Below, piece by piece: positions 16,676 to 55,217 of a DNA stretch of 64,000 nt. The first letter of the stretch is position 1; every line of letters begins with the position of its first letter. The notes beneath the pieces were generated by a model that worked only from the letters and a program-made list of their open reading frames with translations, did not search any database and had not been told where the DNA came from. The translations under genes and the position numbers were made by a program. The DNA is taken from positions 62,001 to 126,000 of the forward strand of contig CADEGF010000008.1 in the NCBI GenBank assembly GCA_902826815.1, in the 5' to 3' direction. The DNA is from an uncultured Mycobacteriaceae bacterium (GTDB lineage Bacteria; Actinomycetota; Actinomycetes; Mycobacteriales; Mycobacteriaceae).

Positions 16676-17232
16676 TCACGACCGTCTGTGCAATTTCGGG
16701 CGGTATCCACGGCGACCGAACGCTTCGTAGACGCGGTGCAGGATGAAGCGCTTGCTGTGCTCGGCAACATCGTATGTTTCTCGCGGTGACTGCGCGCCGC
16801 CGTCCATCAGAGCAAGCTCATTCCTCGCACGCGGTATGCCCCGCAATCGCTGATAGCGCTCGCCGAGCATCAGCGCGTCAGCGGCGTTGATGTCCGTGGC
16901 GTTGGCAAGCGCGTCGAGATGCCTGACCGCGAGATCCCGCGGCAGGTGCCTGGCGATGTCCAACGCCGTCCGCTCGGCTGATGTCACTTTCAATCCCGCG
17001 ATGTCGACGATCTCGTCGTCCTCGATCAGTTCATTTTGAACGATGATCCCGCTGCGGCGCGACCACAGCCATGCCGCCCTCGTTGTGCGCGTTAGTGCTG
17101 TCCGGCTTTGTTGTCCTCGTAGACGTCGGGAAAGACCGCGCGATGGTTCCACCTCAACCGGGCGCGGGTGATCGCACCGCTGGCGATCGCCTCGCTACCG
17201 CTGAACGCATCATCCACACCTGCGATGTTCAC
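16676..17232 (-). pseudogene. Decayed AbiEi/DUF559-type gene
   Basis: Two frames together match the intact gene at 53006-53875. The 5' part (17232 to 17092) encodes SGSEAIASGAITRARL...VFPDVYEDN, matching IGSEAIASGALTPYAL...VYPDVHLSP, then hits a stop. The body continues in another frame (17152 to 16676): TRAAWLWSRRSG, then a gap of roughly 35 residues, then GLKVTSAERTALDIARHLP and YQRLRGIPRARNELALMDGGAQSPRE. The nuclease part (catalytic D...YEG..H) is gone. So it has at least one frameshift, one internal deletion and a lost C-terminus. Confidence 0.8.
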
Positions 17233-51875: not shown

Positions 51876-51879
<4 letters not shown>

Positions 51880-52955
51880 CTGTCGTTCTGGTCGACCCGC
51901 GCCGCCCCTCGTTGATCCCGGTCGAGGCGATCGAATTCCTCGCCGGTGACGTCCAGTACACCGAAGAGATGCCGGTCAAGGTGCCGTGGTCGCTGCCGTC
52001 GGCCCGGCCCGCCTATGAGGGTGACGACGCGCCGGTGCTGTTGTCGTCGGACCGCGAGCACCCGGCGGTACAGGCGCGACTGGCCGCCGGCGACAAGCTG
52101 ATCGCCGCGCCGGACTCGCAGGCAGGGGAGCGGCTTGTCGATGCGGTCGCGATGATGGACAAGCTGCGCACCGCGGGCCCGTGGGAGAGCGAGCAGACGC
52201 ACGATTCGCTGCGTCGTTTCCTGTTGGAGGAGACCTACGAATTGTTCGACGCGGTGCGAAGCGGCAACGCGGATGAACTTCGCGAGGAACTCGGCGATGT
52301 GCTGCTGCAGGTGTTGTTCCAGGCCCGCATCGCCGAGGACGCGCCGCAGCATCCGTTCACCATCGACGACGTCGCGGACACGCTGCAACGCAAGCTCGCC
52401 AACCGGGTGCCCGCGGTGCTCGCGGGCGAGCCGATCTCGCTGGCTGATCAGCTGGCGCAATGGGAAGAGCGCAAGGCCATGGAGAAGAGGGCGAAGTCGC
52501 GCGATTCACTTCTCGATGGCGTGCCGACGGGCCAGCCCGCATTGGCGTTGGCGCAGAAGGTGATTGACCGGGTAAACCAGGCGGGCCTGCCCGCGGACCT
52601 GATCCCGGTATCGATCACTGGCGTGACGGTGTCGCCGGAAGGCGATGCGGAGAACGAGCTGCGGGCCGAGGTGTTGGAGCTGATGGACACCGTGCGCACG
52701 GTGGAGAAGGCGATCGCCGCCGACCGTCGTGGTGAAGACGTCCCAGAGGAGCTCGATATCGCCTCGCTCGGGGGGATCACCGAGGAGGAGTGGCGGGCGT
52801 TCTGGCCGTCCGCCGAGGTCGACGCGGTGGTAGAGCCCGTCGCGGATGAAGAGCCCGTCGCGGATGAAGAGCCCGTCGCGGATGAAGAGCCCGCGGATGA
52901 ACCCGTCGATGAAGATCCCGTCGACGAAGACGAGCCCGTCGACGCTAACTCCTAA
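51876..52955 (+). CDS. mazG: Nucleoside triphosphate pyrophosphohydrolase MazG with an acidic repeat tail
   Basis: 359 residues. It hydrolyses NTPs/dNTPs to NMPs as housecleaning. The MazG catalytic region [15 protein letters not shown]...[15 protein letters not shown] (~110-145) holds the ExxE...ExxD magnesium ligands. An N-terminal ~90-residue extension is mycobacterial. The last ~40 residues are an acidic low-complexity tail of EPVADE units encoded by an 18-bp tandem repeat, longer than I expect for the family. ATGA overlap with mfd. It is followed by the nuclease cassette, not directly by lpqU. Confidence 0.94.
52833..52901 (+). repeat. In-frame 18-bp tandem repeat in the mazG tail
   Basis: Unit gagcccgtcgcggatgaa occurs at 52833, 52851 and 52869 without change, then a shortened copy follows (52887-52901). 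Each full copy adds EPVADE. Degenerate P-V-D-E units continue to the stop. The identity of the copies suggests recent slippage. Confidence 0.95.
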
Positions 52956-53017
52956 CGCCGAACGTGCGTCCACTGCGAAAAATCGCGCGAAATCTCGCAG
53001 TGGTTTCACGTTCGGCG
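52956..53017. repeat. Palindromic hairpin element, left of the DUF559-type gene
   Basis: Left arm 52956-52980 (begins cgccgaacgtgcgtccactg) and right arm 52993-53017 pair at 21 of 25 positions around a 12-nt loop. The 22-base core of the left arm (52959-52980) is identical to the reverse complement of the right arm of the element at 53881-53936. The element starts right after the mazG stop. Its right arm contains the last codons and stop of the nuclease gene. Confidence 0.9.
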
Positions 53018-53875
53018 TCGCCACGCCTCCGTTAGCCGTCCCACCACTACGGCCTCGCCGTCCTCCGCGGTGACGCGGATGTCCGTCCAGCCCAGTTGGG
53101 CGACCGTCTCCGCTTTGCGGATGTCGTGATTGAACACTCTGCGATTGGTCCGATGATGCTCGCCCTCGTAGTCCATGGCGATCTTCATGTCTTCCCAGCC
53201 GAGATCGAAAACACCTACCAGCACGCCGAACTCGTCGTACACCGGAATCTGCGTTTTCGGCCGCGGGAAGTGGTTCCTGATAACGACAAGCCGCAACCAG
53301 CTCTCTTGCGGCGATTCTGCTCCTGGGTCGACGAGGTCGAGAATCTGCCGTGCCTTCCTGATGCCGCGCCGCCCGCGATACCTGTCGACGAGGAGTTCAG
53401 CATCAGCGATCTTGAGTTGTGTCGCCCGGGCCAAGGCATCGATGGCAGCGACCGCGCGGACGAGGGGATACCGACAGGCGATATCGAGTGCCGTGCGGGC
53501 GGGCGTCGTCACCCGAACGCCGCCGATCAGCTCGACCTCGTCATCGGCAAGGGTGTCCGACCAAGTTCGAATACCTTTGGGCGGCCGCCGATTCGACCAG
53601 AGCAATTCGGCCGGCTTACGCGCATCGACCCACTTGGCCCCATGTAGCGCGGCCGCCGATCGGCCAGCGACTACCCCTCGGCGGCCCGACCACAGCCACG
53701 CCGCCCCAGCACGGATGATCGCGGTCATCGTCGTATCTGGCGAGAGGTGGACATCCGGATAGACCGCGACGAAACGACTGCGTAGCGCATACGGCGTCAA
53801 GGCGCCTGATGCGATGGCCTCGCTGCCGATGAATGGTTCCCCCATGCGACGGAGTGTGCGCAACACCACCGACAC
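53006..53875 (-). CDS. AbiEi-like N-domain plus DUF559/Vsr-type nuclease domain protein
   Basis: 289 residues (279 if the start is ATG 53845, MGEPFIGSEAIASG). The N-terminal part resembles AbiEi-type regulators: a winged-helix-like start, SAAALHGAKW (~73-82) and TTPARTALDIA (~123-133). The C-terminal part is a PD-(D/E)xK-like DUF559 fold: ESWLRLVVIRNHFPRP (~191-206), VGVFDLGWEDMKIAMDYEGEHHR (~220-242; candidate catalytic D224 and E237) and LGWTDIRVTAED. It could cut mismatched or modified DNA, as Vsr does; no activity is proven. It is bracketed by two hairpin elements, and a decayed relative lies at 16676-17232. Confidence 0.82.
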   Translation of the reverse strand: MSVVLRTLRRMGEPFIGSEAIASGALTPYALRSRFVAVYPDVHLSPDTTMTAIIRAGAAWLWSGRRGVVAGRSAAALHGAKWVDARKPAELLWSNRRPPKGIRTWSDTLADDEVELIGGVRVTTPARTALDIACRYPLVRAVAAIDALARATQLKIADAELLVDRYRGRRGIRKARQILDLVDPGAESPQESWLRLVVIRNHFPRPKTQIPVYDEFGVLVGVFDLGWEDMKIAMDYEGEHHRTNRRVFNHDIRKAETVAQLGWTDIRVTAEDGEAVVVGRLTEAWRRRT

Positions 53876-53880
53876 CTCCG

Positions 53881-53936
53881 CGAACGTGCGTCTACTGCGA
53901 AAATTCGGCAGTTATTTCGCAGTGGACGCACGTTCG
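53881..53936. repeat. Palindromic hairpin element, right of the DUF559-type gene
   Basis: Arms 53881-53902 (begins cgaacgtgcgtctactgcga) and 53915-53936 pair at 21 of 22 positions around a 12-nt loop. It shares arm sequence and loop length with the element at 52956-53017. It lies 5 bp upstream of the nuclease gene start and 18 bp from the efeB stop. Confidence 0.92.
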
Positions 53937-53954
53937 GCGCGAAGCACTGCAGGG

Positions 53955-55217
53955 TCAGTCGACGAGTTGGTCGCCGAGGAAGCGGTCCGCGCCGGTAACC
54001 CCGGGCAGCGCGAAGAAAAAGCCACCGCCCACCGGCATGATGTACTCCTCGAGCGGCTCGCCCTTGAGCCGGTTCTGCACGGTGAGGAAACCCTTCTCCA
54101 GGCTGCGCTGGTACGCGATGAACGCCAGCCCCTGGTCGAGTCGGCCCGCGCCGTCGAAACCGCGCGAATAGTTGAATCCCCTTCGCAGGATGCGGTTCTG
54201 CTCGGTTTCGGTGGTGCGCGGGTTGGCCAACCGGATGTGGGCGTCCAGCGGGATCCGCTTGCCGTCGGGGTCCTCGGCGTAGTCGGGGTCGGCGAACTCG
54301 TCGGTCATGCCGAGCGGCGCGCCGCTGACCTTCTTGCGGCCGATGAGCGTCTCCTGCTCGCCGAGGCGGGTGCGATCCCAGAACTCGACGAACATGCGGA
54401 TGATGCGGACCGCTTGATACGAGCCGCCGACCGTCCACTCGGGCTCGTCGTCGCCGGGCTGCACCCAGACGTGCTCGTCCATCAGCTTCCCGTCGTCGAC
54501 GTCGAGGTTCGCCGTTCCGTCCTTGAACCCCAACAGGTTCCGCGGGGTCGCTGCCTCCGACGTCGCACCCGCTCCGATGCCGCGGGCGTACCCGTCGATC
54601 ATCCATCGCAGCGTCAGCTCGCTTCGGGTGCACCGCATCAACTGTCGCAACGCGAACTGCACGGTGTCGTTGTGCCCTGCCTCGAGGATGATCGAGACGT
54701 CGCCGTGCGACAGCTTCGGGTCGAGGCGGTCGTTGGCAAGGAACGGCATGGTCTCCAGTTCCTTGGGCTTGCGATCGGCCAGGCCGAACCGGTTGTCGAA
54801 CATCGACGCCCCGACGCCGACCAGAATCGACAGGTTGTCGGCGGGCGGCTTATCGCCGAGGATCCCCGAGTCGACCGGCGGATAGGCCGGGTCGCGCGTC
54901 TCGGGCGGTTGTCCCGCCATCAGCGCACGGATCTCCTCCGTGAGCTCCTGAAGGGTCTTCTTCAGTCCCGCGCGATCGGTGACGTGAAGGTTGAACGACG
55001 CCACCAGACCCTGTTCGGGGATCGGCAGTGTGGTGATCCCCGATTGATGGGCGCCCTCGAACGGGACGAGAGCGGGCTGCGGTACCGCAGGCGCGGCAGG
55101 TTCGGGTGAGGAACACCCGCCCAGCATCGCGCCTGCGCCAACGGCTGCACCGGTGCCCAACGCCCCGGTGACGAAGCCGCGGCGCGAGATGCCAGTGCGT
55201 GGTGGCCGCTCGGTCAC
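53955..55217 (-). CDS. efeB: EfeB-type Dyp peroxidase / deferrochelatase, Tat-exported
   Basis: 420 residues from GTG 55217 (GTGA overlap with efeO stop). A twin-arginine signal (ISRRGFVTGALG) is followed by a Cys in GGCSS, and then a DyP-type heme peroxidase domain with the hallmark GFKDGTAN (~230-237), GGSYQAVRIIRMFVEFWDR, and RRGFNYSRGFD near the C-terminus. EfeB proteins work with EfeO in acquiring iron, or iron from heme, outside the membrane. An iron box lies upstream of the operon. Confidence 0.92.
   Translation of the reverse strand: MTERPPRTGISRRGFVTGALGTGAAVGAGAMLGGCSSPEPAAPAVPQPALVPFEGAHQSGITTLPIPEQGLVASFNLHVTDRAGLKKTLQELTEEIRALMAGQPPETRDPAYPPVDSGILGDKPPADNLSILVGVGASMFDNRFGLADRKPKELETMPFLANDRLDPKLSHGDVSIILEAGHNDTVQFALRQLMRCTRSELTLRWMIDGYARGIGAGATSEAATPRNLLGFKDGTANLDVDDGKLMDEHVWVQPGDDEPEWTVGGSYQAVRIIRMFVEFWDRTRLGEQETLIGRKKVSGAPLGMTDEFADPDYAEDPDGKRIPLDAHIRLANPRTTETEQNRILRRGFNYSRGFDGAGRLDQGLAFIAYQRSLEKGFLTVQNRLKGEPLEEYIMPVGGGFFFALPGVTGADRFLGDQLVD

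Follow-up and report, generated by a model that had tools for sequence, protein, structure and literature searches.

Dispersed REP palindromes in bacteria are commonly attributed to HUH (RAYT) transposases. A homing insertion normally destroys its own target site, and Tn7 works with partner proteins and is associated with a 5-bp duplication. In the REP/RAYT systems (REPtrons), a chromosomal gene encoding a DNA enzyme stands between palindromes, solo copies cognate to the flanked gene are dispersed, and the system is inherited with the host lineage and occasionally occupies a new locus (PMC3733652, PMC3686654). The EDxHD homing endonuclease I-Bth0305I is described as phage-derived and as forming a dimer on a target of almost 60 bp (PMC3943268). 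AbiEi proteins regulate their own expression through inverted repeats bound in the promoter, and one of them, Rv2827c (1ZEL), reportedly binds paired 23-bp inverted repeats with a spacing of 13 bp (PMC7319586).

Here we analysed a window (the whole stretch of 64,000 nucleotides, from an uncultured Mycobacteriaceae bacterium) in which a nuclease gene stands between two palindromes. This unit shares with REP/RAYT the flanked chromosomal enzyme gene, the cognate solo copies, and inheritance with the host lineage with an occasional new locus. In contrast to the HUH Y1 (tyrosine) transposase of REP/RAYT, its enzyme combines an AbiEi-like and a Vsr-like nuclease part; the GTAG/CGTC foot tag, a criterion given in PMC3733652, is absent from the 62-bp palindrome family of the window; and the present system belongs to actinobacteria. 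With EDxHD homing endonucleases such as I-Bth0305I it shares a long two-fold site and perhaps a C-terminal nuclease fold (a weak match), and with free-standing homing endonucleases the occurrence of both occupied and unoccupied sites. Unlike in homing, however, both putative sites stay intact around the insert, which keeps palindromes at both ends in 31 of 40 loci of the clade described below, if the palindrome is the site; and unlike I-Bth0305I, the present gene is chromosomal and has a different DNA-binding module. Since the HUH enzyme and the GTAG/CGTC tag are absent and the homing sites are kept, we filed the unit in neither the REP/RAYT nor the homing family. Among AbiEi antitoxins, Rv2827c gives the best full-length structural match, a weak one, and has inverted repeats as binding sites, as the palindromes may be here, but the present protein adds a Vsr-like nuclease part whose acidic and His residues are conserved, and no AbiEii nucleotidyltransferase toxin gene adjoins the gene at the window locus. 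TnsA of Tn7 has a restriction-type nuclease fold and matches weakly in Foldseek (E 0.23); the unit differs from Tn7 in its palindromic ends, and no target duplication was seen. We found no description of a nuclease–palindrome association in open-licence papers, and earlier work elsewhere is possible.

Structure of the window locus

The window unit has the order palindrome–nuclease gene–palindrome and is about 0.98 kb long (Table 1). The first-pass annotation had described a nuclease gene bracketed by two palindromes of the same design, and both copies indeed fit one 62-bp model. Their 22-base core is identical as claimed, the core in the 5′ arm of the left copy being the reverse complement of that in the 3′ arm of the right copy. 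Loops of 12 nt had been given for both; this is correct for the right palindrome, whose 22-bp arms have one mismatch between them (53881–53936) and whose DNA fold has −28 kcal/mol (z −8.3), whereas the left palindrome, read directly as a hairpin (52955–53018), has arms of about 24 bp with mismatches and a 16-nt centre. As first noticed, the left element follows the mazG stop directly and includes the nuclease stop codon TGA. The right element stops a few bases short of the annotated GTG at 53875, but the family alignment favours the ATG of residue 11, at about 53845, as the likely start. The unit had also been said to interrupt mazG–lpqU; the actual junction is mazG–efeB, with the gene for a Dyp-type peroxidase adjoining and an imelysin (M75) gene behind it. 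A simple toxin–antitoxin arrangement was rejected for the window gene, its neighbours being mazG and the Dyp peroxidase gene.

Table 1 Features of the unit and its neighbours, in window coordinates.
Feature	Position	Strand	Remarks
mazG, left neighbour	51876–52955	(+)	convergent with efeB
Left palindrome (3′ end of the unit)	52956–53017, 62 bp; arms 52956–52978 and 52995–53017; 16-nt centre	.	62-bp R1 model, 77.8 bits; among the 30 training sequences
Nuclease gene, AbiEi-like and Vsr-like (DUF559/MTES_1575)	53006–53875	(−)	likely true start is the ATG at about 53845
Nuclease stop codon TGA, inside the left palindrome	53006–53008	(−)	sequence
Vsr/EDxHD-like C-terminal nuclease domain	53012–53311, about residues 189–288	(−)	
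AbiEi-like N-terminal and middle module	53330–53839, about residues 13–182	(−)	
Right palindrome (5′ end of the unit)	53878–53939, 62 bp; best arms 53881–53902 and 53915–53936; 12-nt centre	.	62-bp R1 model, 74.3 bits; training sequence
Dyp-type peroxidase gene (efeB-like), right neighbour	53955–55217	(−)	

At three or fewer mismatches, the 22-base core has 4 matches in the window against 0.06 expected. Strong hairpins (score at least 15) number 6 in 464 kb of the host genome, the window pair making up 2 of them, compared with 0 in one shuffle per source. The remaining 4 were assigned by eye to families that flank other relatives of the gene, namely GAGCAGACGC-like (as at L027 and L029) and TTGGTGAATCTGACGAC (as at L025). 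Chance hairpins are ruled out by the over-representation of the core, the shuffles, and the control genes described below.

Two further observations were made in the window. An 18-bp repeat in several imperfect copies (52827–52941) gives rise to the acidic, repetitive C-terminal tail of mazG. At 16772–17077 on the (−) strand lies a fragmentary nuclease relative with 48% identity over residues 89–193 and an open frame of 172 aa, which is apparently decayed and keeps remnants of a GCGCTGAGGGCTGCG-type flank.

Domains and predicted fold of the nuclease

The window protein alone stayed under every Pfam cut-off. At E 0.01, 59 aligned sequences of the family contained MTES_1575 in 57, DUF559 in 43, and AbiEi_1 in 22 cases, and one PADLOC AbiEi model matched all 59. 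The invariant columns of this alignment include E191, D224, G238, and H241. The nearest named relatives of the gene belong to Mycobacterium, Mycolicibacterium and their kin.

An AlphaFold model of the nuclease had a mean pLDDT of 95.7. Foldseek searches with this model gave no match at E 0.001 or better. The best full-length match was Rv2827c (E 4.8e-3, TM 0.41, poor superposition), and the next matches included the catalytic domain of I-Bth0305I, which is weak (E 0.026–0.081, TM 0.65–0.67 by target length). Two arms of about 23 bp around a 12–16-bp centre fit the site geometries reported for both Rv2827c and I-Bth0305I.

Recurrence of palindromes around the gene family

In the host genome (6.87 Mb in 141 contigs), 18 places match the nuclease family, the window gene included; L025 and L030 appear to be fragments of a single broken gene. 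Many of these members have their own palindrome, differing in sequence, beside the start or stop. We collected 129 loci with a family match, which left 126 after removal of identical proteins (17 from the host genome and 109 from relatives). The flank thresholds (32 and 40) and hairpin thresholds (12 and 15) were our own choice, the hairpin finder was ungapped, start codons and gene calls in the scripts were our own approximations, and names of palindrome families were assigned by eye.

The 5′ and 3′ flanks matched each other (score at least 40) in 76/126 family genes, compared with 21/630 mismatched pairs and 1/248 control genes of the host genome, so that paired palindromes recur around the family far more often than around controls. 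Hairpins with a score of at least 12, some of them ordinary and terminator-like, were present at either end of 63/126 genes and at both ends of 28/126, compared with 1/756 for shuffled flanks; the 248 control genes had a hairpin at either end in 15 cases (some adjoining nuclease-family elements) and at both ends in 1. The paralogs L020 and L023 are without a clear palindrome pair. On these comparisons, nuclease lineages evidently tend toward their own palindrome of about 55–65 bp at both gene ends.

Palindrome and nuclease also vary together in sequence between unrelated loci. Among pairs without shared neighbours, a flank similarity of at least 40 was reached by 0/607 pairs below 35% protein identity, 0/94 at 35–40%, 1/1096 at 40–45%, 2/2704 at 45–50%, 22/2057 at 50–55%, 45/753 at 55–60%, 43/165 at 60–70%, and 16/18 at 70% or above. 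This co-divergence shows that the gene stays together with its palindromes or moves with them, and common descent of the whole unit explains it as well as recognition does. No near-identical units were found at two loci of one genome among the loci compared, where the closest pair of the host genome (L018/L019) has 82% protein identity, so that any present activity is only putative.

By eye, the centres of otherwise different palindromes often hold a CTCGCACTTT-like motif (L056, L088, L106, L151, L156, and others), and this central sequence may be conserved between several palindrome families.

The palindrome family of the window and its orthologous sites

The palindrome family of the window was modelled from 30 copies, both window copies included. 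The 62-bp model reads CGCCGAACGTG-NNN-CCACTGCGA, followed by some 16 nt of centre and then the mirrored half, and the family consensus runs CGCCGAACGTG...CACGTTCGGCG. In the alignment, pairing holds for 88% of cells, and a change on both sides affects 22 cells compared with 12.4 in shuffles; pairs with a change on both sides number 8, which is no clear excess (108/500 shuffles reach 8).

The nearest relatives of the nuclease have both palindromes, 918–945 bp apart, in 31/40 loci. Among the remaining loci, the second copy of one is truncated where the contig ends, 7 are one-sided (including L216 and L245, whose genes are no more than 150 bp away from a contig end), and L230 has none. By neighbour genes, 43 clade units stand at 7 genomic locations, with L245 of the 40 clade loci left out of this count. 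The main site, P450–unit–enoyl-CoA hydratase (P450–ECH), holds 28/43 loci, plus 2 with an inverted unit; the other locations are five further ones and mazG–efeB, the latter in the window only. Three palindromes of the window family stand in a row beside one unit (L216:966–1190). The neighbouring P450 gene in three loci takes its in-frame TGA stop from the palindrome (L219 at about 2960–2975, L269, and L279).

Loci for detailed comparison were picked by hand from the result tables for a high score or an informative gap and are not a random sample. Eighteen further genomes were chosen by hand for the P450–ECH site, and in 14 of them the gap was <400 bp. Their contents were a solo palindrome of the R1 type (L269 and L271, with a degenerate one in L265), a shrunken unit with a gene remnant (L270), palindromes of other families (L262, L263, L264, L268, and L275), double palindromes whose outer stems are related (L274, L278, and L279), or no clear palindrome (L266 and L267). 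The other four had a unit (L277) or a distant pair (L273) or were incomplete (L272 and L276). In a tree of two flanking genes (44 loci, 4/48 dropped; no support values), these variant states were nested among unit-bearing species, an inverted unit (G017) being sister to a non-inverted one and a shrunken unit (G079) to a full one. Therefore, collapse, decay, and in-place inversion probably occurred repeatedly at this site.

At mazG–efeB, ten other genomes had both genes readable. L052 contains an oppositely oriented unit of another nuclease (47% identity), five have single palindromes of other sequence, some degenerate (L033, L042, L056, L058, and L060), and four are without any palindrome (L039, L045, L053, and L059), all these states being judged by eye. 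Empty sites in relatives, whose existence had been raised as a question at the outset, are thus found in 4 of the 10 readable genomes. Different palindrome families may also replace one another at junctions, a new one inserting into a palindrome already there. By sequence comparison, the unit has been inherited at one site for long periods; it is also found elsewhere, inverted in place, in shrunken form, or with single palindromes in its stead.

Concerted ends and solo palindromes

Ends and solos were compared for 34 units with both ends located, 24 of them at the main site; single-ended loci and L194 were left out. In the 24 main-site units, the two ends of one unit are 0.505 alike, compared with 0.380 for the same ends of orthologous units and with a maximum of 0.446 in 1000 re-pairings. 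The comparison was gapped; an ungapped version mis-registered some ends yet agrees. Since vertically inherited ends should resemble their orthologues more, the two ends seem to exchange sequence or to obey one recogniser, and the two palindrome copies of a unit evidently evolve in concert.

Among 57 solo palindromes, 50 resemble the unit resident in their genome more than they do, on average, the units of other genomes (mean percentile 0.729; Wilcoxon p 3.7e-7, uncorrected for phylogeny). Counter-cases include the solos of G028 (3/3), G001, and G072, which are unlike their unit. Matches to the model, counted on both strands among the best 36 candidates per genome, had a median of 26 in genomes with a cognate unit (pair subtracted, n = 63) and 12 in those without (n = 85); G045, G061, G075, G099, G117, and G119 were counted as unit-bearing though their window-protein match is below the cut. 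The hairpin is thus not scattered without a link to the gene family. Three solos of the host genome (L004, L005, and L008) are alike beyond the 62 bp, with pairwise matches of 78–126 bp, which suggests a duplication of a longer stretch.

The positions of the solos were classified with our own gene caller. Of the 57, 27 lie in convergent, 26 in tandem, and 2 in divergent gaps, 1 in a gene, and 1 at an edge, whereas 213 background gaps comprise 38 convergent, 112 tandem, and 63 divergent ones. Cognate solos thus lie mostly at gene tails. T-tracts (at least 5 T of 8) occur at 3/114 solo edges and 0/114 background edges. An intrinsic terminator was rejected on this ground, so that the palindrome is not, as the first-pass annotation had allowed, only a terminator. 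In 29 of the 34 units, the longest word shared by the 12-bp outer flanks had a mean of 2.93, compared with 2.92 after permutation; an IS-type (DDE) element with target duplication was rejected accordingly, and old target duplications could have decayed. A promoter–operator regulon was rejected from the 2/57 solos in divergent gaps.

The preference of the solos for convergent junctions (27/57 vs 38 of 213) would also be expected if the palindromes were kept for the benefit of the host, for example as bidirectional transcription ends at convergent genes or in chromosome organisation, with the nuclease as a domesticated caretaker that maintains their uniformity and no selfish spread. The concentration of clade units at one locus (28/43) and the presence of other palindrome families at the same junctions point in this direction too. 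However, T-tracts are absent, mazG–efeB junctions without a palindrome exist, and the avoidance of promoters is also expected from selection against harmful insertions. We regard adoption by the host as unlikely, and a selfish unit of nuclease gene and palindromes as the probable reading.

Distribution

All of 60 genomes of the genus carry family matches (2–21 each), and so do 125/197 genomes of the class at E 1e-20, among the best 12 candidates per genome. Outside the genus, matching ends (score at least 32) were found in 15/18 genes compared with 6/306 mismatched pairs, 2/20 loci having been dropped for short flanks. Outside the class, among loci picked by hand from many-copy genomes, 7/17 genes had matching ends compared with 0/272, ten of the 17 were without them, and 3/20 had been dropped for short flanks. 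One tblastn search of 50,697 phage records gave no match, and 2 of 72,556 plasmid records matched, neither covering 80% of the query and one being a record of 11.9 Mb. A phage or plasmid gene was rejected on these counts.

The same counts bear on the idea that the protein is a relative of defence or toxin–antitoxin systems, an AbiEi-type regulator with a nuclease directed against invaders, for which the 5′ palindrome would be the operator. This would account for the PADLOC AbiEi matches (59/59), for a palindrome directly before the gene start, and for the autoregulation of AbiEi proteins through inverted repeats in the promoter (PMC7319586). It does not account for the 3′ copy and the solos, which are not promoter sites; the 43 clade loci in 7 neighbourhoods have no constant companion gene, and the tblastn searches gave no match among the phage records and two partial ones among the plasmid records. 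We consider a defence or toxin–antitoxin role quite unlikely.

Discussion

The locus probably represents a single copy of a selfish unit in which two palindromes enclose a nuclease gene; the unit is REP/RAYT- or homing-like in organisation and has a different enzyme. Recurrent pairs, the tracking of palindrome and protein, solos, and variant states at orthologous sites all point to the REP-like palindrome-plus-nuclease unit that had been proposed as a possibility. Passive hitch-hiking, in which some other enzyme moves the palindromes as independent repeats and the nuclease gene was trapped between two of them, agrees with the solos beside units and in genomes without a cognate unit, but is very improbable, as the co-divergence of palindrome and protein, the near-constant spacing of 918–945 bp, and the matching pairs outside the genus (15/18) would all be coincidence.

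For the selfish unit, we infer cutting and mobility by the nuclease from sequence comparison. Given that AbiEi proteins reportedly bind inverted repeats of 23 bp in pairs, two protein molecules may bind the two arms through the AbiEi-like module. The Vsr/EDxHD-like domain would then cut the DNA in or near the centre of the palindrome. Repair of the break from a unit could copy the gene into a solo palindrome in a homing-like manner, and repair could also convert the two ends of a unit to one sequence, while repair between the two ends of one unit could lead to inversion or to collapse to a solo. The palindromes would thus serve as recognition site and recombination arm and remain as debris. 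Of the two directions, unit to solo appears better supported by the compared loci than solo to unit, the homing-like gain.

A more far-reaching form of this proposal, to which we give slightly less than an even chance, is that of phylum-wide actinobacterial selfish palindromes mobilised by AbiEi–EDxHD nucleases. A dimer would read the two 23-bp arms of a palindrome of about 60 bp and cut its centre, and repair would copy, invert, or collapse gene and palindrome. This would be a third route to REP-like repeats beside HUH transposases and classical homing, with one inverted-repeat-reading module common to AbiEi antitoxins and this nuclease.

The arrangement recurs across many actinobacteria like a previously unrecognised selfish element. 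An enzyme class unrelated to HUH transposases would thereby fill the place of REP/RAYT across actinobacteria, in a gene family known to Pfam and PADLOC only as DUF559, MTES_1575, or 'AbiEi'. If the nuclease acts on its palindrome, the multi-copy state of the family in the genus would be explained, a new family of site-specific nucleases would be at hand whose specificity can be read from the gene flanks, and the binding of inverted repeats by AbiEi proteins would be tied to a mobile-element origin or fate.
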